Assembly (NCBI GenBank): GCA_013350335.1
Contig: CM023532.1
Coordinates: 88,973,383-89,037,382 of the forward strand
Origin: Chimonanthus salicifolius
Lineage: Eukaryota > Streptophyta > Magnoliopsida > Laurales > Calycanthaceae
DNA length: 64,000 nt
Direction of reading: 5' to 3'
Below the pieces are notes generated by a model. It saw only the letters and a list, made by a program, of their open reading frames with translations. It ran no database searches and was not told the origin of the DNA. Numbering within the stretch: the stretch's first letter is position 1; each line of letters starts with the position of its first letter. The translations under genes were made by a program, and so were the position numbers. Of the stretch, positions 5,605 to 54,339 are shown piece by piece.

Positions 5605-8600
5605 TGTAACGCCCCGCCCTCTCCGAGAATTTCAGAGTCTAATTTTTTTTTTTAAATAAACATCGGAAGAGAGCGGGCGGCGTCACGACGCGAGTTAAGT
5701 TCAGACTACCCAAGTCTGAACCTTAACTGGCCACCCATGTGTACATGAAATAGACCATGATAGTGAATCACACATGGAACTAACATCAACATGCGGAATA
5801 ATCTCGATAATTGCGGAATAGAAAGACGAGATAGCAAGTAACAGTCTTAAATATTAACTAACATAGATCAACCATCCACATATTATTATCCTAATCAAAC
5901 CATAGCAAATAACGAATTATTACATGTCCAACAATAGTATTCAAATGACAGTAATATAACGTAATCCAAATCCATTATTAAAGCACTTAGGCTCAGCTCC
6001 CCTCTTGGTCAATGACCTTTCCTTTCCCCTTGCTTGTGCCTGCAATCTCCTCTGAGGATAGAATTAGGGCGTTAGATCAACGCGCCCAGTAGGTTCCCGA
6101 ATCAGGGCTACCACATGTTAGCATATAAAACATGCATATACATATCATATTACATGATCATCAAAAACAGGTAAAACAATGCTATGAAATATGCACATGC
6201 AATGAGCATCCCCCATCATGTACTTTCATAGCCATCACTTGACGTGCCTCGCACCGACAAGGTAAATTACAACACACCTTCATCTCTTCTATAAGCGATG
6301 TACATGTAATGAGCAACCCCCATCATGTACCATCGTATCCATCACTGTAGAACTTCATTCATTATCCCATGACTATGCATGAGATGCCAATGCCTGTATG
6401 CCATTTGTTAATGCATAATATATCATTTGAAACACATATGTTAAAACAAGAGTATCATAAGAAATATTGGGTAAAAACTGTGGTTACAAGTAGGTAGGAA
6501 ACCTACTGAAAATTTGCTTCGGTGTTTGTTCTTTTTCACTTGATCACGACTTGCCCGCCGTTCACGATCCGTTACCTTGTCATGTAACAATAAGTAAATC
6601 ATACTAATAATTAAATATCCACTCTCATATAAGACCCAAACATCTTGTGGGATTCTTCATTCGTCAACTTTAATCTCCAAACTTATCAAATAATCATTGA
6701 TTGGGTTCGGCCATACTACTTGGCCGAACCACATCCTATGGGTTTTTATCCCACTTTCCATCATCATCAATGGTTGATTACATAGTCCATAGTTATCATG
6801 TATGTCTCCTTAATTAAAACAACCATGAGTTCCCATTCAAAACAGCCCATTTATTTCAAAACAGCCCCATGGGGTTCGGCCATACTCATAGCCGAACCCT
6901 AGGGTTCACTTGATCCAACCAACACCATGATCACTCAGGGTCTAATCATGCTAAACCAACCATGAATTAAACATGGTTCAGCCGCATATTAACCCACCAA
7001 AACAGTAACATATTAATCCATTTATTACCATAAAAACACCATATCTTCATATGGTTTTTAACTCACCAAACACATGAAAGACTTACATGGGGTTCGGCCA
7101 TCCAAGGAGGCCGAACCCTAAGTCCATGTTTTGGTCTTTCATACATATTTTTGGTGTCACTTATTCATATAAAATCAGCACATCATTGCTGCACTTTAAC
7201 CTCTCAAAACCATCTAATTATTTTGTCCAAATAACCATCATACCTCATGGGATTCGGCCATCCAAGATGGCCAATCCCCATGGTCCATTTTTCCAGTTTT
7301 AATCTACTGTTTTAGATCAGTAACTTAACCATAACATTACCATGGTTCAGCCATATATTGGCCAACCAAAATCAGTACATAATCTTCATGTAAATCACAT
7401 AAAAACTCCATGATAATGTATGGTTTTTATCTCTCAAAACCATCACCATTAACCACAAAATGATCACACCATTGCATAAACAGTATATTAATATCAAGTT
7501 TTAACTCTCAAAAAAAATCATCCAAAACAGTCCATAAAAAGTCTATGGTTTACATGTTTTTCCAACATGAAACCAACATTCTTTTACATGGGGTTCGGCC
7601 CTCTATGTTGGCCGAACCCAATGGTTATGTTTGCTGTTTTTAAACCTCAATCATCATGTAATTAACAGCGTATTAACATCAGGTTTTAACTTTAAAAGAA
7701 ACTATCCAAAAATTAGCCCAATTTCATAGGGTTTGGCCATGCTCATTGGCCGAACACCATGAAATTGGCTTTGAACATTTAACCCTTTATCTTGGGTTTG
7801 AAACCAACACCCAAATCCATGTTTTTAACCTCCTTAAAACATGCATTCCAAATCCAACAATAACATCTAATATCAGTCCCAAATCATATGGTTTTAATTT
7901 CCAAAAAATATCAAAAACAACCATTTGTTTCCATGGGGTTCGGCCATGCTAAGTGGCCGAACCCAATGGTCCATTTCCTTCTTTTAATCCACTGATTTTA
8001 GACCATATAAACTTCAGTCCCTATGTCATTCAAATCCATGTTTTTAACCATTCTAAAACATGTATTTAAATCTTAAATCAAAACCCAAAAACAGTCCACA
8101 AAATCCATGGTTTTCATGTTTCAAAACATGAAAACCAAGCCATCTCTTACATGGGGTTCGGCCCTTCATGGTGGCCAAACCCAATGGTTATTTTTACCAT
8201 TTTAAATCCTCCACTAATCAAGGTTAAAACTTTGGTGTATTCGGCCATAACCATGGCCAATACACACCACATTTGCTCCATGTTATTATACCAAAATAAC
8301 AAATAAATACTTACCAAACTTCCAATCTTTCTCTTTGCCTTTGGTCCTTGGTTTCTCCCTTTTATTTCTTCCTTTCTTTTGCTGTTTTGTGCTTGATCTA
8401 CTGGTGCAAACACCTCTGCTATTCCAGTTAGGAAAAACGAATTTGAGAGAGGGAGAGAGAGAGAGATGGAAATTCTTGGATTTCCAATGTGAAAAATGGC
8501 CAACCTTGTGTGCTTATTGTTTTTGTAGTTCAGCCCCCAAAACTCCTCCACTCCTTCATAACTTCTTGCACAAACCAATGGGTATTGGGTGCCATCCAAG

Positions 8601-9547
8601 GCACCCCTTGGCAGCTACCTATGCAGCCATTCAAATCCCCAAGCATCTCATCCAATTTCCATGTATTCTCATTTAAAACCCATCATGAAAATCACCAAAA
8701 CAAGTCCCCAACGTGTGGGACTTGTTTTGGTTGGTTTAAGACCAGCCAATCTCTTCAAATTCCCTCTCAACTCACTGATTTTACAGCCCCTTGAATTTCC
8801 ATTTTGACTCACCCAACTCAAGGTATTTTTATTCCAACCCAACTCATCACATTTAATGCATTTCATTTAATGCATATGAGTTAACTCACCTTTTGATTTA
8901 ATTCCAACTCACCTCCATCCCACTCAACTGATTTGAATCGTGTTTGAGCTCCCTTGAGGGTTCACACGGTCAACAATAGTCAACTCGACCCGTTGGGTCC
9001 ACTTTTAGCTCCTTGACCCGTTTTGACAACATGACCCATTTATGGTATTTTGGTCATTTCTAATTGGTTTTTACATATGGATCAAGCCTACCCATTTTTC
9101 CTCCACTTGATTTCCAATCAAATAGACTTAACCCCTTTTAATTTAAAATCACAAAACGGTCCAATAACCCAACAAGACCCGATGGGCCCCATTTGGGCCC
9201 TTTGACCCATTTAGCCATTTTTGACCCAAATGATGAAAATTACCCAACCAATCAAACTTAACATTCATAATGTGCTCATATGATTTTATTTTGAGCAATG
9301 GGCCCCACTATTTCCTTACTTAACATCACAAAATAATTAATTTAACAACTCAGGGGCATTTTGGTAATTTTCCACTTCATTGAGAAATTACCCAACCAAT
9401 CAAACTTGACATTTATAATGTGCTCATATGACCTTAATTTGAGCAATGGGCCCCACCATTTCCTTATTTACAATCATATTTATTGAATTCACCAATCTAG
9501 GGGCATTTTCGTAAATATTCATCTTATTGAGAAATCGGGGTGTTACA
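5605..9547 (-). repeat. Element 1 left LTR (3' LTR in sense)
   Basis: It runs TGTAACGCCCCGCCC to CGGGGTGTTACA, 3,943 bp, the same length as its partner. It carries a conserved hairpin near the left end (about 5694-5729), GGGCG/CGCCC inverted words near 6065-6092, the hairpin array at 6702-8265, a splice-donor-like site at 8308-8315 (minus), a GA microsatellite near 8448-8466 and an AT-rich, (T)GACCC-rich tail. Confidence 0.95.
6702..8265. repeat. Hairpin array in element 1 left LTR (about 11 units)
   Basis: Units occur near 6702, 6870, 7088, 7246, 7590, 7729, 7935, 8152 and 8235, with decayed copies near 6970 and 7338. The typical unit is GGGTTCGGCCAT, a short loop, then ATGGCCGAACCC, often framed by CATGG. 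The arms co-vary: at 7246 GGGATT pairs with AATCCC, and at 8235 GTGTATT pairs with AATACAC, both keeping complementarity. Spacers of 80-200 bp are A/T-rich and not repeated. Confidence 0.9.
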
Positions 9548-9563
9548 ATATAACCCTCTTTTT
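9548..9563 (-). promoter_or_regulatory. Polypurine tract, element 1
   Basis: On the minus strand AAAAAGAGGGTTATAT directly precedes the TGTAACACCCC start of the 3' LTR. The upstream 'tttcgggacgaaaatttt' is also typical of plant chromovirus 3' ends. The same tract occurs at 24016-24031, 33365-33380 and 54328-54343. Confidence 0.75.
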
Positions 9564-9990
9564 AAAATTTTCGTCCCGAAAATCGAGTGAAGTAGGGTTC
9601 TGAACGATTCCATAAATATCTCAGAGTGTGCTATTCTTATTTCCGATTTCAAGTTCCCAAGTGACCTCTTCATTACCATGTCGGTCCACACCACTTTGAC
9701 AAATTGAATCGCTTGGTTCCGTAACACCTTTTGTTTTGTCTCATGTTATATCTTTTTCTCGTGAGCCATTTGTGATCTCACATAGATCAATCTACTCTGT
9801 TTCACTTTACCTGCTCTCATTGTATTTTCCATACGTACCGGCTCAATATGTTCTTTTATCTACTCTCTGTGTGAGGTAGCCTGCCAATGCGAGCCTATGC
9901 TCAGAGCTTTTTCTGATTCCATTTCAACTAGTTTTCTAGTTGCACTCTCCTGGAACTCCATCGGTTAACTACAGAGCCAGGTGATCAGTC
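9560..9990 (-). pseudogene. Degenerate integrase C-terminal end (chromovirus-like), element 1
   Basis: The minus-strand reading at about 9590-9727 contains VLRNQAIQFVKVVW, then LGNLKSEIR and AHSEIF. This resembles the last 40-50 residues of plant chromovirus (Tekay-like) integrases, which usually read V-L-R-x-K-x-I-x-x-V-K-V-x-W and W-E-x-E-x-x-M. Upstream, to about 9990, a conserved but stop-containing stretch continues. No catalytic DDE core is present, so no active enzyme can be made. The block is kept next to the 3' LTR in several elements (33380-33560, 23845-23970, 54340-54480), which suggests a cis role, perhaps in plus-strand priming, rather than coding. Family assignment is by motif memory. 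Confidence 0.6.
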
Positions 9991-11197: not shown

Positions 11198-11734
11198 CTA
11201 GTCTTCCGTAGAAGATTCCGCATCATTAGCGAACTTGAAACGGTTATCAGGACACATCATCGCCGTGTGCCCCAATACTTCACATGTCATGCAGGGTATT
11301 AATCCAGGTCCTCCGATATAAGGACAATTAGTCCTCGCCTCTCCATGCCCGTGCAGTCCACAAACCGGACAGACAACTTCTAATGGATGAGGACAATACA
11401 AACTGTTGTGATCGTCCTGATTACACAACTCACAGGTATCCTAGGGATCTACCTCCCCCGCCGATTCCAATATTATAGGAAAGTCTTCCATAGGATCCTC
11501 ATAAAAGAAAAATCCCAGATCCTCCTCTTCTTCCTCAGGAGGTTCCACCATCCCAGGAATGTCATCCATCAAATCCTCTGCAACAGGTGCTAAGTCCATC
11601 TCATCCTCTTCAGGAGGTCCCTCCTGAAGGCCTACTTGAGTTTCTACGTTGGTGTTGATAGAAGCAGACACCAAGTCTATGGGATGGCTAGGAGTTCCAC
11701 TGTGCCATTCCGAGCACTCCACATTACTCGACAT
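11198..11734 (-). pseudogene. Small acidic three-zinc-knuckle protein, element 1 copy (internal stop)
   Basis: One reading frame of 178 codons is interrupted by a single TAG at 11441-11443 (codon 98). Before the stop are MSSN, a TPSHPIDLVSAS motif and a strongly acidic stretch (Asp/Glu-rich, residues about 43-75). After it come three cysteine motifs: CELCNQDDHNSLYC (CX2CX4HX4C), CPVCGLHGHGEARTNC (CX2CX4HX6C) and CMTCEVLGHTAMMC (CX2CX4HX4C), then a short acidic tail. Zinc knuckles of this type are nucleic-acid binding in retroelement Gag proteins, but there is no capsid domain. Homologues sit at the same place in element 2 (34910-35386, intact) and element 3 (56778-57231, broken). The stop in such a young insertion implies that the copy was supplied in trans, or that the stop is read through. 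Confidence 0.75.
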
Positions 11735-12165: not shown

Positions 12166-12177
12166 GCTCTGATACCA
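12166..12177 (-). promoter_or_regulatory. Primer-binding site, element 1 (initiator tRNA-Met)
   Basis: On the minus strand it reads TGGTATCAGAGC, complementary to the 3' end of plant initiator tRNA-Met, two bases inside the 5' LTR boundary (LTR end TTACA, then GT). It fixes the element's orientation. Confidence 0.9.
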
Positions 12178-12179
12178 AC

Positions 12180-15100
12180 TGTAACGCCCCGCCCTCTCCG
12201 AGAATTTCAGAGTCTAATTTTTTTTTTTAAATAAACATCGGAAGAGAGCGGGCGGCGTCACGACGCGAGTTAAGTTCAGACTACCCAAGTCTGAACCTTA
12301 ACTGGCCACCCATGTGTACATGAAATAGACCATGATAGTGAATCACACATGGAACTAACATCAACATGCGGAATAATCTCGATAATTGCGGAATAGAAAG
12401 ACGAGATAGCAAGTAACAGTCTTAAATATTAACTAACATAGATCAACCATCCACATATTATTATCCTAATCAAACCATAGCAAATAACGAATTATTACAT
12501 GTCCAACAATAGTATTCAAATGACAGTAATATAACGTAATCCAAATCCATTATTAAAGCACTTAGGCTCAGCTCCCCTCTTGGTCAATGACCTTTCCTTT
12601 CCCCTTGCTTGTGCCTGCAATCTCCTCTGAGGATAGAATTAGGGCGTTAGATCAACGCGCCCAGTAGGTTCCCGAATCAGGGCTACCACATGTTAGCATA
12701 TAAAACATGCATATACATATCATATTACATGATCATCAAAAACAGGTAAAACAATGCTATGAAATATGCACATGCAATGAGCATCCCCCATCATGTACTT
12801 TCATAGCCATCACTTGACGTGCCTCGCACCGACAAGGTAAATTACAACACACCTTCATCTCTTCTATAAGCGATGTACATGTAATGAGCAACCCCCATCA
12901 TGTACCATCGTATCCATCACTGTAGAACTTCATTCATTATCCCATGACTATGCATGAGATGCCAATGCCTGTATGCCATTTGTTAATGCATAATATATCA
13001 TTTGAAACACATATGTTAAAACAAGAGTATCATAAGAAATATTGGGTAAAAACTGTGGTTACAAGTAGGTAGGAAACCTACTGAAAATTTGCTTCGGTGT
13101 TTGTTCTTTTTCACTTGATCACGACTTGCCCGCCGTTCACGATCCGTTACCTTGTCATGTAACAATAAGTAAATCATACTAATAATTAAATATCCACTCT
13201 CATATAAGACCCAAACATCTTGTGGGATTCTTCATTCGTCAACTTTAATCTCCAAACTTATCAAATAATCATTGATTGGGTTCGGCCATACTACTTGGCC
13301 GAACCACATCCTATGGGTTTTTATCCCACTTTCCATCATCATCAATGGTTGATTACATAGTCCATAGTTATCATGTATGTCTCCTTAATTAAAACAACCA
13401 TGAGTTCCCATTCAAAACAGCCCATTTATTTCAAAACAGCCCCATGGGGTTCGGCCATACTCATAGCCGAACCCTAGGGTTCACTTGATCCAACCAACAC
13501 CATGATCACTCAGGGTCTAATCATGCTAAACCAACCATGAATTAAACATGGTTCAGCCGCATATTAACCCACCAAAACAGTAACATATTAATCCATTTAT
13601 TACCATAAAAACACCATATCTTCATATGGTTTTTAACTCACCAAACACATGAAAGACTTACATGGGGTTCGGCCATCCAAGGAGGCCGAACCCTAAGTCC
13701 ATGTTTTGGTCTTTCATACATATTTTTGGTGTCACTTATTCATATAAAATCAGCACATCATTGCTGCACTTTAACCTCTCAAAACCATCTAATTATTTTG
13801 TCCAAATAACCATCATACCTCATGGGATTCGGCCATCCAAGATGGCCAATCCCCATGGTCCATTTTTCCAGTTTTAATCTACTGTTTTAGATCAGTAACT
13901 TAACCATAACATTACCATGGTTCAGCCATATATTGGCCAACCAAAATCAGTACATAATCTTCATGTAAATCACATAAAAACTCCATGATAATGTATGGTT
14001 TTTATCTCTCAAAACCATCACCATTAACCACAAAATGATCACACCATTGCATAAACAGTATATTAATATCAAGTTTTAACTCTCAAAAAAAATCATCCAA
14101 AACAGTCCATAAAAAGTCTATGGTTTACATGTTTTTCCAACATGAAACCAACATTCTTTTACATGGGGTTCGGCCCTCTATGTTGGCCGAACCCAATGGT
14201 TATGTTTGCTGTTTTTAAACCTCAATCATCATGTAATTAACAGCGTATTAACATCAGGTTTTAACTTTAAAAGAAACTATCCAAAAATTAGCCCAATTTC
14301 ATAGGGTTTGGCCATGCTCATTGGCCGAACACCATGAAATTGGCTTTGAACATTTAACCCTTTATCTTGGGTTTGAAACCAACACCCAAATCCATGTTTT
14401 TAACCTCCTTAAAACATGCATTCCAAATCCAACAATAACATCTAATATCAGTCCCAAATCATATGGTTTTAATTTCCAAAAAATATCAAAAACAACCATT
14501 TGTTTCCATGGGGTTCGGCCATGCTAAGTGGCCGAACCCAATGGTCCATTTCCTTCTTTTAATCCACTGATTTTAGACCATATAAACTTCAGTCCCTATG
14601 TCATTCAAATCCATGTTTTTAACCATTCTAAAACATGTATTTAAATCTTAAATCAAAACCCAAAAACAGTCCACAAAATCCATGGTTTTCATGTTTCAAA
14701 ACATGAAAACCAAGCCATCTCTTACATGGGGTTCGGCCCTTCATGGTGGCCAAACCCAATGGTTATTTTTACCATTTTAAATCCTCCACTAATCAAGGTT
14801 AAAACCTTGGTGTATTCGGCCATAACCATGGCCAATACACACCACATTTGCTCCATGTTATTATACCAAAATAACAAATAAATACTTACCAAACTTCCAA
14901 TCTTTCTCTTTGCCTTTGGTCCTTGGTTTCTCCCTTTTATTTCTTCCTTTCTTTTGCTGTTTTGTGCTTGATCTACTGGTGCAAACACCTCTGCTATTCC
15001 AGTTAGGAAAAACGAATTTGAGAGAGGGAGAGAGAGAGAGATGGAAATTCTTGGATTTCCAATGTGAAAAATGGCCAACCTTGTGTGCTTATTGTTTTTG

Positions 15101-16122
15101 TAGTTCAGCCCCCAAAACTCCTCCACTCCTTCATAACTTCTTGCACAAACCAATGGGTATTGGGTGCCATCCAAGGCACCCCTTGGCAGCTACCTATGCA
15201 GCCATTCAAATCCCCAAGCATCTCATCCAATTTCCATGTATTCTCATTTAAAACCCATCATGAAAATCACCAAAACAAGTCCCCAACGTGTGGGACTTGT
15301 TTTGGTTGGTTTAAGACCAGCCAATCTCTTCAAATTCCCTCTCAACTCACTGATTTTACAGCCCCTTGAATTTCCATTTTGACTCACCCAACTCAAGGTA
15401 TTTTTATTCCAACCCAACTCATCACATTTAATGCATTTCATTTAATGCATATGAGTTAACTCACCTTTTGATTTAATTCCAACTCACCTCCATCCCACTC
15501 AACTGATTTGAATCGTGTTTGAGCTCCCTTGAGGGTTCACACGGTCAACAATAGTCAACTCGACCCGTTGGGTCCACTTTTAGCTCCTTGACCCGTTTTG
15601 ACAACATGACCCATTTATGGTATTTTGGTCATTTCTAATTGGTTTTTACATATGGATCAAGCCTACCCATTTTTCCTCCACTTGATTTCCAATCAAATAG
15701 ACTTAACCCCTTTTAATTTAAAATCACAAAACGGTCCAATAACCCAACAAGACCCGATGGGCCCCATTTGGGCCCTTTGACCCATTTAGCCATTTTTGAC
15801 CCAAATGATGAAAATTACCCAACCAATCAAACTTAACATTCATAATGTGCTCATATGATTTTATTTTGAGCAATGGGCCCCACTATTTCCTTACTTAACA
15901 TCACAAAATAATTAATTTAACAACTCAGGGGCATTTTGGTAATTTTCCACTTCATTGAGAAATTACCCAACCAATCAAACTTGACATTTATAATGTGCTC
16001 ATATGACCTTAATTTGAGCAATGGGCCCCACCATTTCCTTATTTACAATCATATTTATTGAATTCACCAATCTAGGGGCATTTTCGTAAATATTCATCTT
16101 ATTGAGAAATCGGGGTGTTACA
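12180..16122 (-). repeat. Element 1 right LTR (5' LTR in sense)
   Basis: This is a direct copy of 5605-9547 at offset 6,575, with the same length and nearly no differences. It is adjacent to the primer-binding site. All sub-features recur: hairpin array at 13277-14840, splice-donor-like site at 14883-14890, GA tract near 15023-15041. Confidence 0.95.
13277..14840. repeat. Hairpin array in element 1 right LTR
   Basis: Identical to the left-LTR array at offset 6,575, so it duplicates by LTR synthesis and adds no independent evidence of structural conservation. Confidence 0.9.
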
Positions 16123-23970: not shown

Positions 23971-25264
23971 ATCGTTTAGAACCCTACTTCGCTCGATTTT
24001 CGGGACTAAAATTTTAAAAAGAGGGTTATATTGTAACACCCTGATTTTTCAAAGATATAAATATTTACAAAAATGCCATTGGAATGGTAAATTAAAAAGA
24101 TATGATCGTAGATGAGAAAATGGTGGGGCCCATTGTTCAAATTAAGACCCAATGTGCATATTATAAGGATCAAATTAAATTAAATGGGTATTGTACATCT
24201 AATTGGGTCAAGATGGTTATTTGGGTCAAAGGACCCAATTGGGACCCAATGGGTCATGATGGACTCATTTGACCATTGGGTGAGCCCAATCTTAATTGGG
24301 TTAGGCTGAATTGATTTGGAATTAAGTAAAGGATAAATAGGTAGGCTGGATGCAAATATGTAAACCACATTTAAATGGGTAAACCATCCATAAATGGGTC
24401 AAGGCGTCAAATTGGATCAATAAGTTAAAATGGGACCCAGTGGGTCGAGTTGACCATGTTGACCACGTTGACTGTGTGGACCCTCAAGTGAGCTCAAAGG
24501 GTGAGTCAAATCAGGTTGAGTTAGGGCTGAAGTGAGTTGGATTTGAATTAAGCAATGGAGTTGACTCAAGTGCTTTAAATGAATGACATTAAATATGGTG
24601 AGTTGAGCTAATGAGTTGGGTGAGTTAAAATGGAAACCAAAGAGACCTTGAAATCCATTGAGTCAAATGGGGAGGTGAGGAGTTGCCTTGGTCTTAAACA
24701 TCACAAAGACAAGTTCCACACGTTGGTAGCATGAGGAGTAGTTTTCCATGCATGAAATTAAATGGAATGGGATAAGTTTTGAATGGGGAATTTGGAGGGT
24801 TTCCATCTCATGATGGAAACCCAAAGCCCAACGTTGGGAGTGCCAAGGGATGCCTTGGTTAGTATCAAAAGACTCCTTGGTTAGATCAAGAATTCATGAG
24901 AGTTAATGAGAAGTTATGGTGGCTGATTAGCATAAGGGATATACACCATCACTTGGCCGAATTCCATCTCAAATAAAGCATAGAATTTCATCTCTCTCTA
25001 TCTCTCTCTCAAAACCTATCTGTTGGCCGAATCATCCTTTGGTTTTTTCACCATTGTTCAAGCTTTTAATCAGCAAAAGGAGGGAGGCTAAGGAAGATAG
25101 GAAGCAAGGATCAAGGGCGAGAGGCTTAGAGAATTGGTAAGTACTCCATGGAATTTTGTTTAATAAGTTGGTTAAATGGAACATGATTTGGCCATGGTAT
25201 GGCCGAATCTATCAAAGGTTAAACCCTGGATTTTGGTGTATAAAAAGGGCAGGAAATGGATCAT

Positions 25265-26660
25265 AGGGTTCGGCCACTTTGGATGGCCGAACCCCATGAA
25301 ATGGTTTGGTTATTGTTGATGGTTTTTGAAAGTTAAAAACCATGCAATATTATGGAGATTTCTAGATGTTTTAATTAGACATAAGATGCAAGTTAAAGGG
25401 TTTTAAATCATGGATTTGAATGTCATGATTTGGTCATGTTATGGCTGAATTTATCAATGGTTTAAATTATGATGATGAGGTTTAAAAAGGATAGAAACTT
25501 GGATCATAGGGTTCGGTCACTTTGGATGGCCGAACCCCATGAAAGGATTTAATAAGCTTATGGTGATTTTTTATGGTTTTGAAAGATAAAAACCATACCA
25601 ATATATGAGAGTTTTTTAAGTGTTTTATTTGGAATAAAAATTGATGTTTTGGGTTGGTCTTTGGATGGCTAAACCATATCATAATTATGGTTAAAAGGTT
25701 GAATATAAACCATACAAGGTATGGAAGGGTTAAGGTGTTAAAAATGGAGATAAGGTGTATGTCTTGGGTCGGCCAATGTATGGCTGAACCATATTTTTCT
25801 TATGGTTAAATTATTATGCCAAAACCATGAATAATTATGGAAAGGATTCATCCAAGGGAACCATAGGGTTCGGCCATGTGTATGGCCGAACCCCATGGAC
25901 CATTTTATGGTTTAAATGGACCCTTGTATGGTATTTGGATTCAAGTATATGAGTAGAAATTATTGTTGGTTTTGTAATTTTTTTTAAAGGGTCTAAAATA
26001 TGACTAAATGGTGAAGTATGATTAATGGATAAAAGAACCAAGGGTGATCTATAGGGTTCGGCCATGGGTATGGCCGAACCCCATAGAAAGAAACATAAGT
26101 CATGTTTGGGGGTTTTGAAGGATAAAAATTATGGAATGATATGAATATCTTAAATGGATTGTTAGCATGTTAATAGGTAGAAATAAAGAACCATAGGGTT
26201 TGGCCATATGTATGGCCGAACCCCATGGAGTAGTTTTGATGGATGTAAGTGATGTTGGAACCAAGAAAATGATGGAAGATTAAGGGCTAGTTAATCACAT
26301 GGATAAATGGGTAACTAGTCTTAATTATGAAGGATTAAGAGACCAATTTGGATTGGTGAGGTTCGGCCATGTTGTATGGCCGAACCCCACTAAGGTGGAT
26401 TTGTTTTGGATACTAGTGGTTAGCAAGATTAATTATTGGTTAGCCTAGTGGCAAAACCGTAAATATAAGTTATAATGGAATGAAGGATTAAAGGACTTGA
26501 AAAGAGGGGTCCAAAACCAAAGTGATAAGGTTCGGCCATGTCGTATGGCCGAACCCTTCCAAGATATGTATGAAGTGTGAAGTGTTTAAGTGTTCATCAA
26601 ATGAAAAGGAATATTAAATCCAAAAGAGGTGAGGTTCGGCCATGGGTATGGCCAAACCAC
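25265..26660. repeat. Hairpin array in the plus-strand element's LTR
   Basis: Units lie near 25265, 25508, 25865, 26052, 26195, 26360, 26530 and 26632, with a decayed one near 25767. They have the same GGTTCGGCCAT ... ATGGCCGAACC design as element 1, about 100-240 bp apart. The sequence between units shares no obvious motif. Confidence 0.9.
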
Positions 26661-28346
26661 ACAAAGTGGTTTTTGGGACTTACATGTAATAAGAAATCAA
26701 AAAGATATGTTATTAACTTGCTGTTGTATAAACAAGGTAACGGGACTTGAACGGTGTGCGAGTCGTGAACAGGTGACGCTTAAGAAAGAATGGACATTTA
26801 AGAGAACTTTCAGTAGGTTTCCTACGTACTTGTAACCACTTTTATATTTGGTTTTATCAGAGTTTTTATGAGATATTTGCTATACTATTATTTTTCATAT
26901 TGGATTTGAATGATGAGATTTATTTACATGTTTCATATATTCCTTGGCGTCTCATATACGGACATGGGATGATGATTATGGAAACCGGAACCCACACTCC
27001 GTCGGTATGCCCGTGATGCAACTGTGGGGCCTCCTTAGGCGATGAGGGTCCCGCCAGGAGGAATATCATGATGATAAGAGTTACATCAAGAAGAAATGAA
27101 AGAATACTGTGGTTTACCTTGACGATGAGAGTCTCGTCAAGTGATGGCTATGTATAGGTGTGATGGGTGGGACTCATTACATTTGCATACATATATAGCA
27201 TTGATTTATATGTTTTTGATGACCATATATTATGATATATGCATGTTTATATATACTAACCATGTGGTAGCCCTGATCAAAAAACATACTAGGCGCGTTG
27301 ATCTAACGCCCTATTTCTATCCTTAGTGGATGATGCAAGAAAGGGGAAGGCAAAGGCTGAGGATCACGAGGAAAGCTAAGCATAGATTCTTGGATGTTGG
27401 AATGGGTTTCTATTTACTGTTGTTTGGATACATTGTTATGGACATGTAATAGTTTAGTAACTTTGCTATGGTTTGTGAATAGTTTGATGATGGATATTTG
27501 GTTTAAGTAGTTTATAATGGATGACTTGTACTTGCTATCTACTCAGTATAATTCCGCAATCAGTTAGTTCCGTAATTGGTTTAGTATTATTCCGCATGAC
27601 TTATTTAGTTCCGTGTGTGTAACACCCTGCCCTTTTTACGCTTAATAATCAGAGTTTATTTTTTTATTTTTTTAAATATAATAATCAACCAAGTGATCGG
27701 GGCGGAGTGCCACGACGCGAGTTAAGTTCGGATTTCTAAAGTCCGACCCTTAACTGGCCAAGCCCATGTGCGTATGGATTAAGTCCATAAGAATCGATCC
27801 ACACATGGTACAATAAACTTGCGGAATATACTTAGTCTTAATCTAACTGAGGTTATAATAGATCCTATAACTACTCAATTTACAACTTAAGATAGCAAAG
27901 TACATGATTTATTCTCCAATATTACTAAATATCCTTAGTCTACCATTCATTCCAAACCATCCAAACAAACCAAACCAAAGTAGCTACTTAACTACATTTT
28001 TACATGCCAACACCACTAATTATCAAATTACATTGTCCAAATAACTTAAACAAAAAGTCCATAAACAGTCCATTCAAAATCCATTCAAATCCATTCAAAT
28101 TGCCCAAGCTCCTATGCATGGTTTCCTTCTCGATCCTCATTCTTCCCCTTTCCTGTGTCATGCACTAAGGATATAGATAGGGTGTTAGATCAATGCGCCC
28201 AGTAGGTCATCCGATTAAGGCTACCACAAGGTTAGTATAAAAACATGCAAATAATATAATAATACATGTTTAACAAAATTCCATAAAACAATGCTATGTA
28301 TGAAATGAATATGTAATGAGTCCCACCCATCACCATTATACAACCT

Positions 28347-28502
28347 CCTCTTGACGGGATTCTCATCGTCAAGGTACCCCACAGTGGTCTTTCGGACGCC
28401 CCGACGGAGTGTGGCCTCCGGATTCCTCTTGATGGGATTCTGATCATCAAGGTACCCCACAGTGGTCTTTCGGATGCCCCGACGGAGTGTGGCCTCCGGT
28501 TA
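28347..28502. repeat. 78-bp tandem duplication carrying a co-varying stem
   Basis: The two units start 'cctcttga' (28347 and 28425). In the first TTGACG pairs with CGTCAA; in the second TTGATG pairs with CATCAA, so both arms changed together. Each unit then has 'cccacagtggtctttcgga' and a GCCCCGACGGAGTGTGGCCTCC block. Confidence 0.85.
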
Positions 28503-28798
28503 CAACACCATCATCCCATGCCATGCATGAGATGTCTATGCAATCATGCCATTTGTAAATATAACTTTACATTCAAATAACTTATCAAACTCAACATAAA
28601 ACAGCAAACATCATATGTGGTTACAAAAAGGTAGGAAACCTACACAATGTTACTTAGTTTGACCCTTCTTTTGAACCGTCACTCGTTCATGACTTGTACA
28701 CCGTTCAAACAAGTCCCGATACCTTATTTACATAGCAGCAAATCGAACATTCATCCATGTAATTCCAACTTGGTCTAAGTCCCAAAAATCCACTATGT

Positions 28799-29713
28799 GG
28801 GGTTCGGCCATACCCTATGGCCAAACCTCACCCATGTAAACTTTGGTCTTTCTTTTCATTTAATCATATTAAACCTCCTCACACCTCAAACATACTTTGG
28901 TAGGGTTCGGCCATACAACATGGCCGAACCTTACCACTTGATTTTGGACCCCTCTTTTCAAGTCTTTTGATCAATCCATTCACATACACAATTTATCTTG
29001 TATTTACAGTTTTGCCATTGGTCTAACCAATGCTTAATTTTGCTAACTTCCATTGCCTAAAATAAAACCATCTTAGTGGGGTTCGGCCATACCACATGGC
29101 CGAACCTCACCATCTTAATTTGGTCCTTTTTAAATCCTCCATACCTCCATATAACTTAACCACTAAGTCCATCAATCACCATTAGTGGGGTTCGGCCATA
29201 CTACATGGCCCTCACCAATCTGATTTTTGTCCCACTTTCCATCTTATATCATGGTTGATCAACTTAATATTAAATCCATAACTAAGCCTAGGTAATTCTT
29301 AAATCAAAAGCATAAAACACATCATAGTTTTCCAATATGATTTAATCCAAACATACCATCAAAACAGTCCATGGGGTTCGGCCATACACATGGCCGAACC
29401 CTATGGTTCTCTTAACACAATAATTCCATCATTTATATACATATTTGGCTCTACACTTTAACCATGAAAACCACATGATTCAGCCATCCCATAACTGGTC
29501 CAAAACAGTAAACTTATTTCCATTAAAAATCATTTACACCTTCAAAACATAATATGGATTTTATCCCTTAAAAACCCTAAACTTCACCAAGTCTTTTCAT
29601 GGGGTTTCAGCCATCCAAAGGGGCCGAACCCTATGGTCCATGTTTTGTTATTTAAAACCAGCATAATACTTGATCTAAACCATTGATGGATCTGGCCATA
29701 CAATGGCCGGATC
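28799..29713. repeat. Hairpin array in solo LTR 27618-31062
   Basis: Units lie near 28799, 28904, 29080, 29188 (right arm deleted), 29372, 29596 and 29688. The last has GATCTGGCCAT pairing with ATGGCCGGATC, another case where the outer bases differ from consensus and yet still pair. Confidence 0.88.
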
Positions 29714-31814
29714 ACATTTCCTTAACCAACTTATTTAACAAGGGTTCAAAGTGCACTTACCAACACCGCGACTCCTTCAGTTCTTTGACTCTTTTTAGAT
29801 CCTTAGCCTTCCCTCTTCCTTCTTGTTCTCCTAACTGAGATTAACCTTGCTGCAACCTCCTTGGAATACTTCAGCCAGGTGATATGGATTTGAGAGAGAA
29901 AATGAGAGAGAAAGAGAGAGAACTTTGGCCTTGGATGAGTGTGATAATCCTTGATGCCAAACTCCTTTGTATCTTTTGTCTTGGTGAAAGGAATCAACCA
30001 AGGACTGATTGAAAATAAGCAACCAGCTGCTGTTCTTGGTTTTGAAAGATGGAGGACGACCAAGGGAGAGAGAGGTAGTGATAGAAAAATGAACTTCTTT
30101 TGGCTAATCAAATTCAGCCCAATGTTGACCTCACATGTAACTCCCACATTTACCCAAGCCCTTGATGCTTACTTGGGGGTTTCATCTATGAAATGAAACT
30201 CCCTAAGTATCCAACGTCTCCCATGGTTTGTATTGTGTAACCTCCCATTTTCCTTCTCCTCTCATAATCATCTTACATGGGAGTTTCATCTTGAGCTGAA
30301 ACCTTCCCCCTCCTCCAACGTGTAGTCTTAACATATTTGAATTTGAAAAGTCAAAACCCCTTTTGTAACTCCATAAAACAACACCCATTCATTCTCCATC
30401 TTTGGAGTTACATGTATGAAATAATAATCCCTTATATTCCAACGTGTGGCCATTGTTGAGCTTAAGTAACTGCCACCTCTTAAATATGTAACTCCATGTG
30501 TGAACCCATTTTGTAACTCCCACAAAAACGGTACCTTCCATTTATTTCCTATCTTGGAGTTTCATGCATGGGATGCCCACCCATGCATCCAACGTGTGGA
30601 CCATCTTATTTGAATATGAAAACCAGCCCTTCAACTTCATACTCCACTCATTTATAATTTAAAACAACTCACTTACTCATAACTTATTTCAAATCAACTC
30701 ACTCACTTATAATTTATTTTTAACCAACTCACTCATTTAACTCAACTATTTAATTCCATTTTCAAACTCCAAACAGCCCCAACTTAATCAAACTTGGACT
30801 CACTTGATGGTCAACTAAGTCAAACCTGACCCATTGGGTCCAAATTGGCCATTTTGAACCATTTCACAAACTTCGACCCAATTAGTAATCTTGACCCAAT
30901 TACTCATTTATTTTATTTCAAACACACAACTCATAGCCATTGAGGCTTAATTTAACAATGTGCCCCACATTTTTCTCATCTATCATCATAACCCTTCAAT
31001 TTATAACTCCAGTGGCATTTTCGTAAATATTAATATATTGCAAAAAAATCTAGGGTATTACAGTGTGTGTATTGTTTATCATGGTTTAGTCCATGCACAC
31101 ATGGTTGGCCAGTTAAGGGTCGGACTTTGGAAGTCCGGACTTAGCTCGCGTCGTGACGCTTCCCGCTCTCTTCCACTTGTTTATTTATAAAAAAAAAAAA
31201 ATAGACTCTGATTTTTGGAAGGTTAGAAAAGGGCGGGGCGTTACACATTTCATCCCTCCCATGCCATGCATGAGATGCAAACGCCAACATGCTATGGAAT
31301 ATTACAAAATATAGCATGAAAATCTCATAATTGCAACATATTGTTTAATACCAAAATAACTTATCAAACATGAAATAAAATCATCATAAATACATAATAC
31401 ATATCCATGGTTTCAATGATGTAGGAATCCTACCAATGATCAACTTAATATGTCTTTGCGTTTTTGTCCGAAAACCGCTCACCGATCGTACCGCTTGTGA
31501 GGTCCCGTTACCTTATAACATATCAATAAATCAAAACCCATGTTCTATCATGTTTATGTCTATAAACACACTTTTGTGGGGTTCGGCCATACAACATGGC
31601 CGAACCTCACATACTTGGTTTGGGTCCCTCTTTTGATTCCTTAATCAATCATACATGAGTTAGTCATTTAGCTTTTATAAAACCTAAGTCCACAAAAGCT
31701 TTCTCCATTAAATCAATTACAATTTTTAAGTCCATAAATGAAGATCCCTCCATGGGGGTTTAATCATACACTTAGGTCTCTCATTTTAAAACATCATCTT
31801 CCATATTTAAAAAC

Positions 31815-32020: not shown

Positions 32021-32132
32021 TAAGATCATTAACCAACTTCAATGGTTTTCATCCTTCAAAACCCATAACAATTACTAACATACTTCCATTTTAAAACCTT
32101 TTAATATCCTTAACCCTTTCCATGGTTTAACC

Positions 32133-33364
32133 TGCAACTCCCCGCCCTTTTTCACTATGCCGAAAATCGGAGTCTATTTTTTTCTTTGAATAAAAGAGTG
32201 AGAGAGAGTGGGACGGAACGACGCGAGTTAAGTCCAAGCTTCCAAAGCCCGACCCTTAACTGGCCAACCATACGTGTGCATGGACCAAGTCCACTAAAAC
32301 GTTTCACACGTACTCAAGTTAACATGCGGAATAAAACATAAATGCTAAAATATAATGGAATAACAATTCTATTCCATTTTAGATAGCAAGGAGGTCCATC
32401 ACTTACAATAATTATCTTAAGTTAACATATCCAAAGTTAACATTCAAACCATAGCAAATAAACTACATTATTACAATTCTGAATGCTAGCTATTCAAATA
32501 CATAGTCCATGAATAACATAAATAAAACGAAACCAAAACATCCAAGCTCCTACGCTTGGCTTCGATCTCATTCCTCATTTCGTCCACTTCCTATATCATC
32601 AACTAGGGTAGAAGTAGGGCGATAGACAACGCGCCCAGTAGGTATTCCAATTAGGGTTAAACACATGGGTTAGTACCAAAAATCCAGATATAATATATCA
32701 TGCCTTGTGTATTATCCTCTTGATGGAAAAACTCATCATCAAGGTATGCCCACAGTTGTCTTACGGACGCCCGACGGAGTTTGGCCTCCGGTTACCTCTT
32801 GAGATGGAAACCCTCCGTGTTCCAACGTGTGCTATGGTCATGCCTTGTGTAACCACCAAAAACCCTTTGCCTCCATATTAACCCTCATTAATAATCCATT
32901 TGGAGTTCCATCCCATGAGATGAAACTCCCACTTCCAACATGTGAACACCTTAGGTTTGATCTTATGAGATGTAACTCTCCATCTTATCACCTAACTCAC
33001 CTAAGATCAAAGTCCCATTAACTTCCACTCAACTCATCACTTTAACTCAACTCAGTTAACTCACTTAAAATCAACTCAATTACTTGATTCCATTTCCAAC
33101 TTAATTCAGCCCAATTTAATTAAGCTTGAACTCACTTGGTGGTCAACCAAGTCAACCATGACCCATTGGGTCCCAATTGGGCATTTTGACCCAATTAAAT
33201 AAGTCTTGACCATTTACTTCAAGTGAACGTTATCCATGATCCGTTGGATCTTAATTGGACACTTGACCCAACACCTTATCCATCTAAGGTCTATCTCCAT
33301 TAATTTACAACTTAAATGGGCAATTTCCATAAATATTTATAACTTGAAAATACGGGGTGCTACA
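32133..33364 (-). repeat. Element 2 left LTR, internally deleted
   Basis: It starts TGCAACTCCCC (TGTAAC mutated) and ends CGGGGTGCTACA. Compared with the right LTR it jumps from 'ggttacctcttga' (about 32803; compare 36829) to 'gatggaaaccctccgtg' (compare 42547). GATGGA is present on both sides of the junction, so the hairpin array and promoter-like part are gone. Confidence 0.85.
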
Positions 33365-34909: not shown

Positions 34910-35386
34910 CTAACCTTCTGTAAAAGACCCTGCATCATCACCAAAATCGAAGAAGTTGTCAGGGCATGTCGTCAACGTGTGCCCCAACACTCCACAAGTC
35001 AGACAGTGTATTATTCTCGGTCCCCCAATGTAAGGACAATTAGTCATCTCCTTCCCGTGCCTATGAAGTCCACAAACAGGGCAAATAACCTTAAGGGGGT
35101 AGGGGTAGAAAGTACAGTTGTGCCCTTCCTGGTTGCACAACTCGTACATATACCCGGGCACTATCTCCCTTACGGATTTTCCTATCATTGGGATATTTCC
35201 CATATGCTCTTCTCGAAAAGGGGCTAGATTCACTTCGACATCCTCGGGGGATCCTACCTGGACGTCTATGTTAACTTCCACAGCGCGGTCTGGCCTGCTG
35301 GAGTTGTTGGAAGAAGAAACCAGATCTATAGGACAGTTAGGGGTTCCTCTATCCCCCAACGCTATATACTTTATGTTGCTCGACAT
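34910..35386 (-). CDS. Small acidic zinc-knuckle protein of element 2, intact, 158 residues
   Basis: The frame is open from an upstream ATG at 35422, but I choose the ATG at 35386 because MSSN is the start shared with the other copies. Order: MSSN, TPNCPIDLVSSS (about residues 17-28), an acidic linker, then a degenerate first knuckle (YELCNQEGHNCTFY; two cysteines replaced by Tyr), CPVCGLHRHGKEMTNC (CX2CX4HX6C), CLTCGVLGHTLTTC (CX2CX4HX4C) and an acidic tail. It lies 0.6 kb downstream of the primer-binding site, where gag normally starts, but no capsid is present. Known retroelement zinc knuckles bind RNA or DNA; that this one packages the hairpin RNA is only inference. It is the only intact copy among three in the window. 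Confidence 0.7.
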   Translation of the reverse strand: MSSNIKYIALGDRGTPNCPIDLVSSSNNSSRPDRAVEVNIDVQVGSPEDVEVNLAPFREEHMGNIPMIGKSVREIVPGYMYELCNQEGHNCTFYPYPLKVICPVCGLHRHGKEMTNCPYIGGPRIIHCLTCGVLGHTLTTCPDNFFDFGDDAGSFTEG

Positions 35387-35947
35387 ATCTATATCACAAC
35401 AACAAAAGCATATCAATGACAACCGCAGTTGTAATCAAACTAATCTTTGTTTTGGGGAATTTCCCTAATCATCATCTTGTATTTCTTGTTTTGGGGAGTT
35501 TCCTATGTATCACATAATGTCTCTTGTTTGGGGAAATTTCCAAATAAACATCTTATGTTTCTTGTCCTTGCAGAAATTTTCCTAAGTATCAAGTATCATT
35601 TCTCAATTTGGGGAAATCTTGATTTTTCCTGTTCTCGGGGAAAACCTCCTTAAGTATCAAGTATCACTTCTCAATTTGGGGAAATCCTGATGTTTTCTTG
35701 TTTCGGGGAAATATCTCTTATTTTGCTATGTTTGATAATCTAATTTATAGTCACTGTCCTTCCCTTGCTGTCATTCATTTTTCGTCAAGTGTTCTGAGAT
35801 TGAATGTTTCAGTCTGAGTCTAAAGAAGTAAATTAATCTGGCCCCCGTGCAGCGGACTCCGAAGAGTCAGTCAGTTAGGGTTCTTATCTGTCAGTGAGAC
35901 ATGATGCCATCTTAATCTTACTTCGAAAGATTCAACCTTCCCGTTTT

Positions 35948-35959: not shown

Positions 35960-36709
35960 ACTGTAACGCCCCGCAATTTTTCACTATGCCGAAAATCAGA
36001 GTCTATTTTTTTCTTTGAATAAAAGAGTGAGAGAGAGCAGGACGCCACGACGAGAGCTAACTCCGAGCTTCCAAAGCCCGACCCTTAACTGGACAACCAT
36101 ACGTGTGCATGGACCAAGTCCACTAAAACGTTTCACACGTACTCAAGTTAACATGCGGAATAAAACATAAATGCGGAAATATAATAGAATAACAATTCTA
36201 TTCCATTTTAGATAGCAAGGAGGTCCATCACTTACAATAATTATCTTAAGTTAACATATCCAAGTTAACATTCAAACCATAACAAATAATCTAAGTTATT
36301 ACAATCCCACGAACTAATTACTCAAATACATTATCGACGAGTAACTTAAACAAAATGAAACTAAAACATCCAAGCTCCTAAGCTTGGCTCCAGTCACGTT
36401 CATTGTTCCGTCCATTCCCTGTGTCATCAACTAGGGTAGAAGTAGGGCGTTAGACAACGCGCCCAGTAGGTATTCCAATTAGGGTCAAACACATGGGTTA
36501 GTACCAAAAATCCAGATATAATATATCATGTCGTATCTGTAAAACATTGTATCCAAAACAGTGTATGATAATAGAGATCCAATCATACAGATAAAACCAG
36601 AAACAGTGCATGATAATAGAGATCATAATCATGCTGATACAATGCCATGCCATGCGTACCATATGCCATGAGTCCCACCCACCAGCCATAACACAATCAC
36701 AAAACATCC

Positions 36710-36915
36710 TCTTGATGGAAAGCTCCTTATCAAGGTATCCTCAAACATAGTATCCTCTTGATGGAAAAACTCATCATCAAGGTATTCCCACAGTTGTCTT
36801 ATGGACGCCCCGACGGAGTGTGGCCTTCGGTTACCTCTTGATGGATAATGCACATCAAGGTACCCCCACAGTTGCCTTACGGACGCCCCGACGGAGCATG
36901 GTCTCCGGTTACATA
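36710..36915. repeat. Tandem CTTGATGG ... CATCAAGG units in element 2 LTR
   Basis: Three copies of a stem (near 36712, 36752 and 36835) with 'cccacagttg' and GCCCCGACGGAG blocks after the last two. This is the second structural repeat set of the family, equivalent to 28347-28502. Confidence 0.8.
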
Positions 36916-37772
36916 TCATCCCTCCCATGCCATGCATGACATGCAAATGTACACTTGCTATGCAAGAATACAAATCATAGCATTAAAAACCCATATTTGA
37001 AACATAACATTTGTTACAAAATAACTCATCAAAATATGAATTAAAACCATCATACATATCCCATGGTATCAATGAGGTAAGAATCCTACTATTGACCACT
37101 AAAGTGTCCTTGCGTTTTCGTCAGGAAACCGCCCACGATCGTACACCGCTTGTGAGGTCCCGTTACCTTATTACATAATCAAACCCATGTTCTATTTGAT
37201 TTCCAATCATGTCTAAGTCCATAAACACACCTTAGTGGGGTTCGGCCATACAACATGGCCGACCCTCACTCACATGGTCTTGGTCCCACTTTTTGATCCT
37301 TGATCATTCTAACCATTGTGGGTCCAAGATCATCCCATCTTTGATTCATTAAACCAAATACATATAAGTTAATCATTTAACCTTAAGAACACTATAAATC
37401 CACTAACACATTCCCCATGGGGTTCGGCCATACACCATGGCCGAACCCATGGTCCATCATTTTCACCCATATTTACCTCTTTGCCATTAATCTTTCCATG
37501 GCTACTCACTTAGCTTATATATGCATAACTTAAGTCCCAACATCATTCTATTAGTTTTACATTAATGGAAGCCCTAAATCCATAAAACATTTTCTATGAT
37601 TCAATCATTCACTTCGGCCATTTATGCATGTCTAAAACCAAAACATGATCCATGGGGTTCGGCCATACACCATGGCCGAACCCATGGTCCTTTAATTTCA
37701 CCATTTGGCCATTCTTTCCTTCCATAGGTAATCACCTAATTTACTTACCCATACTTAGATCCATACATGATC

Positions 37773-40700: not shown

Positions 40701-41088
40701 TGACCCGTTTTGATTCCATGACCCATTTATGGGTTGTTTTAGCCATTTGCATTTGGTTTTCACATGTGCATCAAGCCTACCCATTTATGCTCCACTTAAT
40801 TTCCAATCAATTCAGCTTAACCCCAATAAATTTGGGCTCATCCAATGGTCTAATAAGTCCATTATGACCCATTGGGTCCAATTGGGTCCTTTGACCCAAT
40901 TAACCATATTGATCCAAATTGATGTTCATTACCCATTCAATCAAATTTGACACTTATAATGTGCTCATAGGGTCTTAATTTGAGCAATGGGCCCCACTAT
41001 TTTCTCATTTAACATCATAATTAATAAATTTACCAATCTAGGGACATTTTCGTAATTATCCATTTCATTGAGAAATTGGGGTGTTACA
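37773..41088 (-). mobile_element. Solo LTR nested in element 2's right LTR
   Basis: It starts TGTAACGCCCCGCCC, ends TTGGGGTGTTACA, is 3,316 bp, and has a perfect duplication TGATC (37768-37772 and 41089-41093). It belongs to the same subfamily as element 1's LTRs. Hairpins lie near 38886, 38962, 39238, 39478, 39628, 39848 and 39936. A splice-donor-like site is at 40004-40011 (minus). Confidence 0.94.
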
Positions 41089-46800: not shown

Positions 46801-48023
46801 TGGATAACGTATGGACTAATTCGGTAAATGTAATAAGGTATCGGGACGTCGCAAATGGTACGCGATCGGCCACCGAATTATCAAACGGAAAGCGTAACGG
46901 AACGGTACGTGGTATTCAGTAGGATTCCTACCTTTTTGTAAGCGATGGATATATGATGGTATTTTAAATTATTTTGATTTGGTTTATGATGGATTTATGA
47001 TTATGATTTATCTTATGACGAGTTTCAAGTTATGAATCATATGGATTATATTTTAACATTATGCATTATATGGCTATGTATGGTATATCAAAATTATGGT
47101 TTATCTATATACTACATAGCATAATGCACGTACATCTCATGCATGGCATGGGCGGGAAAATAATGAAACCAGAGTCCATGCTCCGTCGGAGCAACCGAGA
47201 ATCCGACATGGGGATGGCCTGAGGGCTATAACCAGAGTCCATGCTCTGTCGGGGCGACCGAGAATCAAACATGGGGATAGTTCTATAACCGGAGTCCATG
47301 CTCCGTCGGGGCGACCGAGAAGCAAACATGGGGACAATACATTGTATGATCATACGGATGATGGGTGGGACACATGACATTGGCACCCATGGCATAACAC
47401 TCATTACATGCTTATTTTGTTATATTTTATTGTATCGGTATGCATGTTATCACTAATCCATATGCTAGCCCTACTCGGAGTCCTACTGGGCAAGTTTACT
47501 AACGCCCTACTTCTACCCTAGTTGATGACGCAGGGGATGGCGGAAGCGGTGGACATGACAGGAGCCAAGCTTAGGAGCTTGGGAAAGCGGCTACTTAGTC
47601 TTATTTAAGTTTTATTTTGGAAATGTAATTAAGTAGCTTAGCTTGTCGGATTGTAATAATTACTGTTTCTAGCTATGGTTTGGACTATACTATGGACGAT
47701 ATCATTTTGAGATACAATTATGAACATAGGGGTATTTTAGTAATTTAATGATGTATCTTCCATTCTATCTAAAAATCGGTAGGATAGACTCTATTATCAT
47801 ATTCCGTAATGATTAAAATCCGCGAGCTTACTTCTTACGCATGAACCATTCTCGTGGACTTAGTTCCGCGTACGCGTGGGGTTGGCCAGTTAAGGGTCGG
47901 GCTTTAGAAGCTCGGACTTAACTCGCGTCGTGGCGTCCGCGCCCTCTCTCACTCTTCTATTTCAAAAAAAAAAAAATAGATTCTGATTTTCGGAAAGCGG
48001 GTGAAAAAGGGCCGGGCGTTACA
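43817..48023 (+). mobile_element. Innermost solo LTR, 4,207 bp
   Basis: It starts TGTAATACCCCG, ends GGGCCGGGCGTTACA, and has a perfect duplication GTTCT (43812-43816 and 48024-48028). It belongs to the longer subfamily shared with element 3 (for example 'ccacctccacctcaccc' and 'ggttgacttggtcaaccatgg'). It contains a GA-rich tract (44950-45015), a splice-donor-like GTAAGTAT at 45228-45235, hairpins near 45450, 45695, 45902, 46280 and 46540, and three 'gagtccatgctccgtcgg' units at 47165-47335. Confidence 0.93.
47165..47335. repeat. Tandem repeat, about 60-bp units, in solo LTR 43817-48023
   Basis: Three units of 'accagagtccatgctccgtc' followed by 'gcgaccgagaat' and 'acatgggga'. They correspond to the CCCCGACGGAGCATGGACTCC block of element 3 (near 51100 and 58802) on the other strand. 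Confidence 0.8.
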
Positions 48024-54327: not shown

Positions 54328-54339
54328 ATACAATCCTCT

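Follow-up and report, generated by a model that had tools for sequence, protein, structure and literature searches.

Hairpin arrays within a predicted LTR intron of retrotransposons from Chimonanthus salicifolius

The window, a 64-kb stretch of Chimonanthus salicifolius DNA, is a nest of LTR retrotransposons, and the arrays of short hairpins carried by its giant LTRs lie in a predicted LTR intron. At the sequence level, the analysis establishes the hairpins, the conservation of their arms, the splice signals that flank the arrays of complete LTRs and the coding constraint on a zinc-knuckle gene. We tentatively regard the arrays as reiterated cis-acting palindromes in a spliceosomal LTR intron, whose hairpins may mark unspliced RNA or tune splicing. 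The units may act in RNA or in DNA, with DNA-binding sites as a strong rival.

Hairpin units of the window and the genome

As defined by a scan of the window, the units have GGTTCGGCC/GGCCGAACC arms and loops of 6–10 nt. With a limit of four mismatches, which favours conserved arms, the scan returned 81 matches, as against 0–4 in each of 20 first-order Markov sequences; removal of overlaps left 76 units, or 63 when elements A and B are each represented by a single LTR. The array at 6702–8265 (minus strand) consists of nine units with at most four mismatches (6704, 6873, 7091, 7251, 7344, 7592, 7730, 7937, and 8155) and a weaker tenth (8237), spaced 82–248 bp apart. The preliminary description of about ten hairpins in this region, 80–240 bp apart and inside giant LTRs, is thus borne out in number and spacing. 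The paired variants that it named are present at 8237, 7251, 29688, 52600, and 62379, some of them with a bulge or one imperfect pair, and its view of the spacers as unrelated holds only in part, since 44 unit pairs have homologous flanks.

The array lies within the 3,943-bp 3′ LTR of element A (5605–9547, minus strand), which is 99.97% identical to the 5′ LTR at 12180–16122 (minus strand), where the same array is found. The primer-binding site (PBS) of the element, at 12166–12177 on the minus strand, is complementary to the consensus of initiator tRNA-Met, and we take it to be of that type. The two LTRs of element B (50175–54327 and 57876–62027) are 98.2% identical, and four further LTR-like segments of 3.3–4.2 kb, in either orientation, have the ends and blocks common to the LTRs of A and B. 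Beyond the complete LTRs, the remaining units of the window are located in LTR fragments, except for two, at 56193 and 56463 (56193–56489, minus strand), which belong to the internal region of element B and lie outside its LTRs. An inverted repeat, ATTTTCG-GGA-CGAAAAT, is found directly before the polypurine tract (PPT) and is common to elements A and B (9555–9578 and 54334–54357).

The motif is abundant genome-wide: GGTTCGGCCN6-10GGCCGAACC has 97,660 exact matches in the 852.6-Mb genome, with 0 for the reversed control, and the 12-mer GGGTTCGGCCAT occurs 96,068 times in forward and 96,818 times in reverse orientation, with 7 + 7 occurrences of the reversed word. Twenty evenly spaced 10-kb stretches of one contig contain 41 units with at most four mismatches, 27 of them in two stretches. 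Of 127 units in the genome sample, use was made of the 119 that have loops of 6–10 nt and a clear strand skew. Among the window and sampled loci, most copies form arrays inside the predicted LTR intron. One scan of viral contigs gave no match to the hairpin.

Conservation and pairing of the arms

Units with similar flanks were matched as sisters in disjoint pairs, the six nt beside the arms being excluded from the flank comparison. In the 17 sister pairs of the window, flanks differ at 521 of 2,306 sites and arms at 14 of 306. In the 71 pairs from the window and the genome sample, the differences amount to 2,229 of 10,944 flank sites (20.4%) and 89 of 1,278 arm sites (7.0%), arms diverging about three times more slowly. 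Across seven arrays, 74 CpGs are found in 864 arm nt as against 11 in the other 7,614 nt, a count that measures retention only with the proviso that the motif itself contains CpG. Both measures refer to units found by their likeness to the motif. When units were placed by their flanks alone, in a set that includes reciprocal pairs, a complete or truncated core was present in 24 of the 25 placements with a flank E of at most 1e-5, the exception being 32039–32058; over all 62 placements, in which many cores are visibly misplaced or cut off, divergence is 18.0% in arms and 25.5% in flanks. Selection on the units, as proposed in the preliminary description, is supported by the conservation of the arms and the retention of CpG.

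The proposal that the arms co-vary fared differently in the sister pairs. Arm changes in the 17 window pairs are one-sided in 10 cases and two-sided in 2, with 0 compensatory. Over the nine core arm pairs of the 71 sister pairs, 79 changes are one-sided and 5 two-sided, where 3.1 two-sided changes are expected by independence; a G-U pair is kept in 30 of the one-sided changes and pairing is broken in 49, while 3 of the two-sided changes go from one Watson-Crick pair to another. The core arms of these 71 pairs show no excess of compensatory over one-sided changes, the mark of a covarying structural RNA, so that the check suggested with the original proposal came out mostly against arm covariation. 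Decay of dead copies probably accounts for much of the recent change in the arms, and compensation could therefore still take place in active lineages; the claimed excess is nevertheless absent.

Permutation of partners among about 65 units without homologous flanks gave another picture at the base of the stem, where outer pairs 5, 4, 6, 1, and 3 covary above chance (z 6.4, 4.6, 3.3, 3.3, and 2.8, respectively) and outer pair 2 does not exceed permuted partners. Within the arms of the same units, pair 2 covaries (z 4.3) and the remaining pairs show no excess, the highest being pair 5 with a z of 1.4. The permutation takes kinship into account to the depth of flank homology. The signal at the stem base and at arm pair 2 is also observed in the window alone. 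A duplex-energy test on the 20-nt flanks of 41 non-sister window units detected no clear extra pairing (z −1.1 sense, −1.6 antisense). Covariation is restricted to the stem base and arm pair 2 and is seen by one of two tests; of the original claim, the stem base stands by permutation and the arms as a whole do not. Of six copies of the first hairpin placed by their distance from the donor, those with gap-free arms in the alignment have A-T or G-C at pair 2 and T-A or C-G at pair 4.

At arm pair 2, paired variants are uncommon, and some of them are duplicates. By raw genome-wide counts, the T-A variant GTTTCGGCC/GGCCGAAAC has 25 copies, the A-T variant (arm GATTCGGCC) 107, and T-A at the CpG pair 5 (arm GGTTTGGCC) 2,393. 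Ten of the 25 T-A copies have the loop ATGGTAAAT, two of these being the window's own, and a 7-nt loop is found in 33 of the 50 matches listed for the A-T variant. Duplication of a few variant units, which the preliminary description had set against its own proposal, applies in part, some of these variants being amplified copies.

A second hairpin type is located nearer the acceptor. At 28347–28454 (minus strand), two intronic copies, CTTGATG/CATCAAG and CTTGACG/CGTCAAG, differ in both arms and still pair, the latter being a tandem neighbour in the same LTR. Element B carries CTTGATG/CATTAAG, CGGGACG/CGTCCAA, and CTGGACG/CGTCCAG at 50908–51027 (minus strand), the middle one pairing imperfectly; some copies of this type have mismatches. 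Judged by these copies, this type appears to be the better case for compensation, with the limits that copies are few and that the differing pair at 28347–28454 is a CpG. Another hairpin, AGGTTCAGACT/AGTCTGAACTT, is present near the LTR 3′ end of element A at 5697–5723, and its arms are different in other LTRs.

Folding was compared inside and outside the predicted intron. The mean fold z for sense/antisense is −2.00/−2.29 inside and −0.76/−0.99 outside in element A, −1.85/−2.29 and −0.36/−0.41 in P24032, −1.76/−2.22 and −0.98/−1.20 in M37773, and −1.08/−1.68 and −1.49/−2.34 in element B, where the outside region folds more strongly. Antisense values are as strong as, or stronger than, sense values, and the arms give no clear sign of sense-strand G-U tolerance, with 20 C>T and 12 G>A changes at a background ratio of 1.51; neither result points to selection at the RNA level. 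Two other identities of the unit were considered and rejected. Longer miRNA-like stems disagree with the flanks of the 41 non-sister units, which beyond six nt show no gain in pairing over swapped flanks. The Pol III B-box reads GGTTCGA..., whereas the seventh base of the unit is G, and ARAGORN finds no tRNA.

The predicted LTR intron and the zinc-knuckle gene

In the 3′ LTR of element A, the predicted intron covers 2,263 nt (6052–8314, minus strand) and contains the whole array, with a TTG/GTAAGTA donor match at 8315/8314, a branch-like CTAAC, a CAG at 6052, and shifts in base composition. Splice-signal matches place the same predicted intron at 12627–14889 (minus strand) in the 5′ LTR. Corresponding predictions were made for the LTRs at 24032–27617 (25137–27326, plus strand, 12 units inside), 27618–31063 (28165–29760, minus, 9 units), 37773–41088 (38229–40010, minus, 8 units), and 43817–48023 (45228–47521, plus, 5 units), and for the element B LTRs at 50175–54327 (50654–53235, minus, 4 units) and 57876–62027 (58355–60936, minus, 4 units). 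In each of the eight complete LTR copies, which represent six distinct LTRs, a GTAAGT donor match and a CTAAC...AG acceptor match enclose the array. When the region before the array is aligned, a purine-rich block and a CT repeat are followed by a GTANGT common to all 8 rows. A donor pattern had served to select 7 of the rows, and position the eighth; a ninth LTR copy, a fragment near 49100, has GTGTGT at the donor place, which makes 8 of 9. On the acceptor side, a CTA..CCT.AG block is present in the 10 rows that reach it, of 11 aligned, and 8 of the 9 rows that extend over the branch-like region have CTAAC.

Base composition changes at both ends in 6/6 LTRs. At the donor, U rises from 11–25% over the final 100 nt of exon 1 to 30–35% over the initial 150 nt of the intron; at the acceptor, it falls from 34–41% over the final 150 nt of the intron to 7–17% over the initial 60 nt of exon 2. 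The shift at the donor is small, from 25% to 31%, in the LTR at 24032–27617, and exon 2 beyond its first 60 nt is U-rich overall (31–37%). GT-AG ends, a branch-like CTAAC, and U-rich ends beside U-poor exon borders are all features of plant introns, and the position of the array between splice-site matches, together with such base shifts at both ends, is the reason for placing the arrays in a predicted LTR intron. By an approximate splice matrix, the acceptors rank 1, 2, 1, 1, 2, and 4 among 167–241 AGs per LTR, and the donors of the LTRs at 50175 and 43817 come no higher than 16th and 17th.

Loose unit matches in the eight complete copies (six distinct LTRs) fall inside the intron in 62 of 66 cases, with none upstream; the 4 downstream matches have five mismatches each, and two of them are a separate hairpin near the end of the element A LTR. 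In four distinct LTRs, the first unit lies 47–51 nt and the second 130–133 nt from the donor. The corresponding positions are +42/+124 and +53/+164 in two loci of the genome sample (L016 and L023), and the first unit is at +255 and +225 in the LTRs at 50175 and 43817. Among 20 unit-bearing loci of the genome sample, 9 donor matches were found, of which 8 are credible and one, inside an array, was discounted, along with 8 acceptor matches; the acceptor block is also present in 6/6 knuckle-ORF loci of the genome. One sampled locus, L017 (4645–6526), is an LTR with both splice signals and no hairpin unit between them. In element B, a GTAAGT donor-like site directly follows a hairpin unit at 52949 and 60651 (minus strand). 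The short LTR at 32132–33364 was considered as a spliced retrocopy and rejected, having lost its array by a deletion with break points off the splice sites; its partner LTR consists of 35962–37772 and 41089–42940, split by a nested LTR.

A triple-CCHC zinc-knuckle open frame of 174 aa is found at 34910–35434 (minus strand), with homologues in elements A and B and in the protein P0001. The frames of A and B are broken versions: in B, the frame at 56778–57146 (minus strand) is separated from its N-terminal part, which is read in a different, stop-containing frame, and A has a remnant at 11207–11440 (minus strand). Over 72 codons, dN/dS calculated with our own script is 0.15 (M-B) and 0.12 (M-A, dS 1.78), and in the A-B comparison synonymous sites are saturated; these ratios of 0.12–0.15 indicate that the protein is under purifying selection. 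Pfam gave sub-threshold matches only, zinc knuckles among them. A search of a protein collection with the three frames returned one homologue, P0001 (178 aa), and with a single frame alone none. In the genome of the window, P0001 gave 6,324 first-look candidates, of which the best 150, a set biased towards intact copies, are all near full length and 139 are without stops. Six P0001 loci have the acceptor block and an LTR-end match in 6/6 and the exact PBS string in 4/6; no hairpin unit is found within their 3.5 kb, which start ~0.6 kb ahead of the acceptor. Elements A and B have internal regions of 2,632 and 3,548 bp with no frame longer than 122 aa, and the sense frames tried (at least 60 aa) gave no Pfam match to pol.

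Possible mechanisms and relation to known systems

The strong rival to intronic RNA hairpins is that the units are DNA-level palindromes, the CGG...CCG dyad being a duplex site for a dimeric host or element factor of transcription or chromatin and the intron location incidental; we consider this doubtful as it stands, yet a serious possibility. It would account for arms conserved in sequence rather than by compensation, for CpG cores kept in arrays with few CpGs elsewhere, and for the lack of strand asymmetry, and the Sirevirus motifs have the same CGG-CCG core (PMC2829016). It is harder to reconcile with the variable dyad spacing (6–10 nt) of the window's units, with stem-base pairs that change together in units without homologous flanks, and with arrays lying downstream of the exon-1 block, no conserved TATA box being recognised by eye in the pre-array and LTR 3′-part alignments. 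That the hairpins are small-RNA precursors or targets, cut by Dicer-like enzymes or recognised by the host for silencing, seems improbable. In maize, the palindrome clusters of Sirevirus LTRs are reported to draw small RNAs in excess (Bousios 2016, as cited in PMC10760457), but the stems here are only ~13–17 bp, their flanks beyond six nt add no pairing over swapped ones, Rfam has no match at the gathering threshold in the window, and such processing would explain recognition by the host, not conservation of the arms by the element.

Very improbable, in our estimate, is a palindrome without function that has spread by tandem and segmental duplication and whose arms owe their match to hairpin-templated repair or gene conversion. 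Units and flanks are indeed duplicated within arrays (the flanks of 7592 and 8155 are 80% identical), and the rare two-sided variants are partly amplified copies. Templated repair, however, keeps pairing and does not freeze the arm sequence, whereas the arms here evolve three times more slowly than their flanks and retain CpGs, and 79 of the 84 changed pairs remain one-sided.

The preferred reading, intronic hairpins that act in RNA, concerns high-copy LTR retrotransposons in which no pol was detected and the only detected gene is that of the triple-CCHC zinc-knuckle protein. Their LTR leader would be transcribed and facultatively spliced, so that the hairpins would be present in unspliced RNA only. 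There they may fold and be read by a sequence-specific RNA-binding factor, for which the knuckle protein encoded by the element is one candidate and a partner Gag or a splicing factor of the host are others; the unspliced genomic RNA would be retained, marked, or packaged, and the spliced RNA would serve as mRNA. The logic would be that of the retroviral packaging signal, which lies downstream of the major splice donor. Several observations count against this explanation: the L017 locus with splice signals and no units, the two units outside any LTR (56193 and 56463), and, in the LTRs at 50175 and 43817, weak donor ranks (16th and 17th) and first units far from +50. A more specific version, which we think rather unlikely, is splicing-gated packaging, in which the repeated intron hairpin would let the element's own triple-knuckle protein select unspliced RNA, with all enzymes borrowed from an autonomous partner; nothing was found that links the knuckle protein to the hairpins. 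If true, an element with one 178-aa gene would control its own RNA.

As with the retroviral packaging signal, the hairpins are placed so that only unspliced RNA would hold them; they differ in lying in the LTR and in having more units, and a packaging role is for them a proposal. The LARD elements of barley have giant LTRs and are not known to have coding capacity. The elements described here resemble them in their giant LTRs and an internal region without detected pol, and differ in encoding a conserved triple-CCHC protein. Element A has traits that we take to be those of a chromovirus of the Del/Tekay type, with TGTAAC...GTTACA ends, an initiator-Met PBS, and CGGGACGAAAATTTT before the PPT; element B starts with TGTAATGGCC.

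BARE1 is a plant LTR retrotransposon with a proven intron, in which U is 13.5% versus 37.5%, and splicing separates the RNA for translation from the RNA for replication (PMC3735527). The U-rich intron between U-poor exon borders is a likeness; the BARE1 intron has 104 nt and lies in gag, whereas the intron here is predicted, has 1.6–2.6 kb, lies in the LTR, and is packed with hairpins. Arrays in a predicted intron, with near-fixed donor distances in four LTRs and one conserved gene of RNA-binding type, make a concrete test case for how a retrotransposon separates translation RNA from replication RNA, a "major question" in the words of PMC3735527.

The preliminary description had seen in the arrays a possible undescribed structural system, and had overlooked the predicted intron and the zinc-knuckle frame. 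Palindromic repeated-motif arrays in LTRs are, however, already described for Sireviruses: these Copia elements carry palindromic motifs with a CGG-CCG core, 8–32 per element with some internal copies, for the most part within the upper half of the 3′ LTR, ahead of the TATA box, and the arrays, defined by at least 8 copies per element in the 3′ LTR and linker, are presented as Sirevirus-specific in PMC2829016. The literature covered leaves both DNA and RNA action of such arrays in play. Compared with Table 3 of that source, the GGTTCGGCC...GGCCGAACC palindrome has the CGG-CCG core, and the reiteration, the clustering in LTRs, and the occasional internal copies are alike. Element A has ten copies in its 3′ LTR, and element B four in the 3′ LTR and two internal. 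The clustered multiple PPTs of Sireviruses are absent, four elements having one LTR-adjacent PPT and at most 2 other purine runs of at least 9 per 600 nt. Longer stems, the array in a predicted intron, the TGTAAC...GTTACA ends, and the lack of detected pol also set the present arrays apart from what that source describes. The shared core and reiteration, set against the single PPT and the chromovirus-like ends, point to the same kind of motif array in a different type of element. Titles and abstract openings in the literature, with few subscription papers covered, gave no report of hairpin arrays inside an LTR intron. By sequence comparison, the closest known kind is that of the Sirevirus CGG-CCG motifs, of which the present arrays appear as a variant in elements with chromovirus-like ends, and what is new about them is their place in a predicted intron, their scale, and the element with a single gene.
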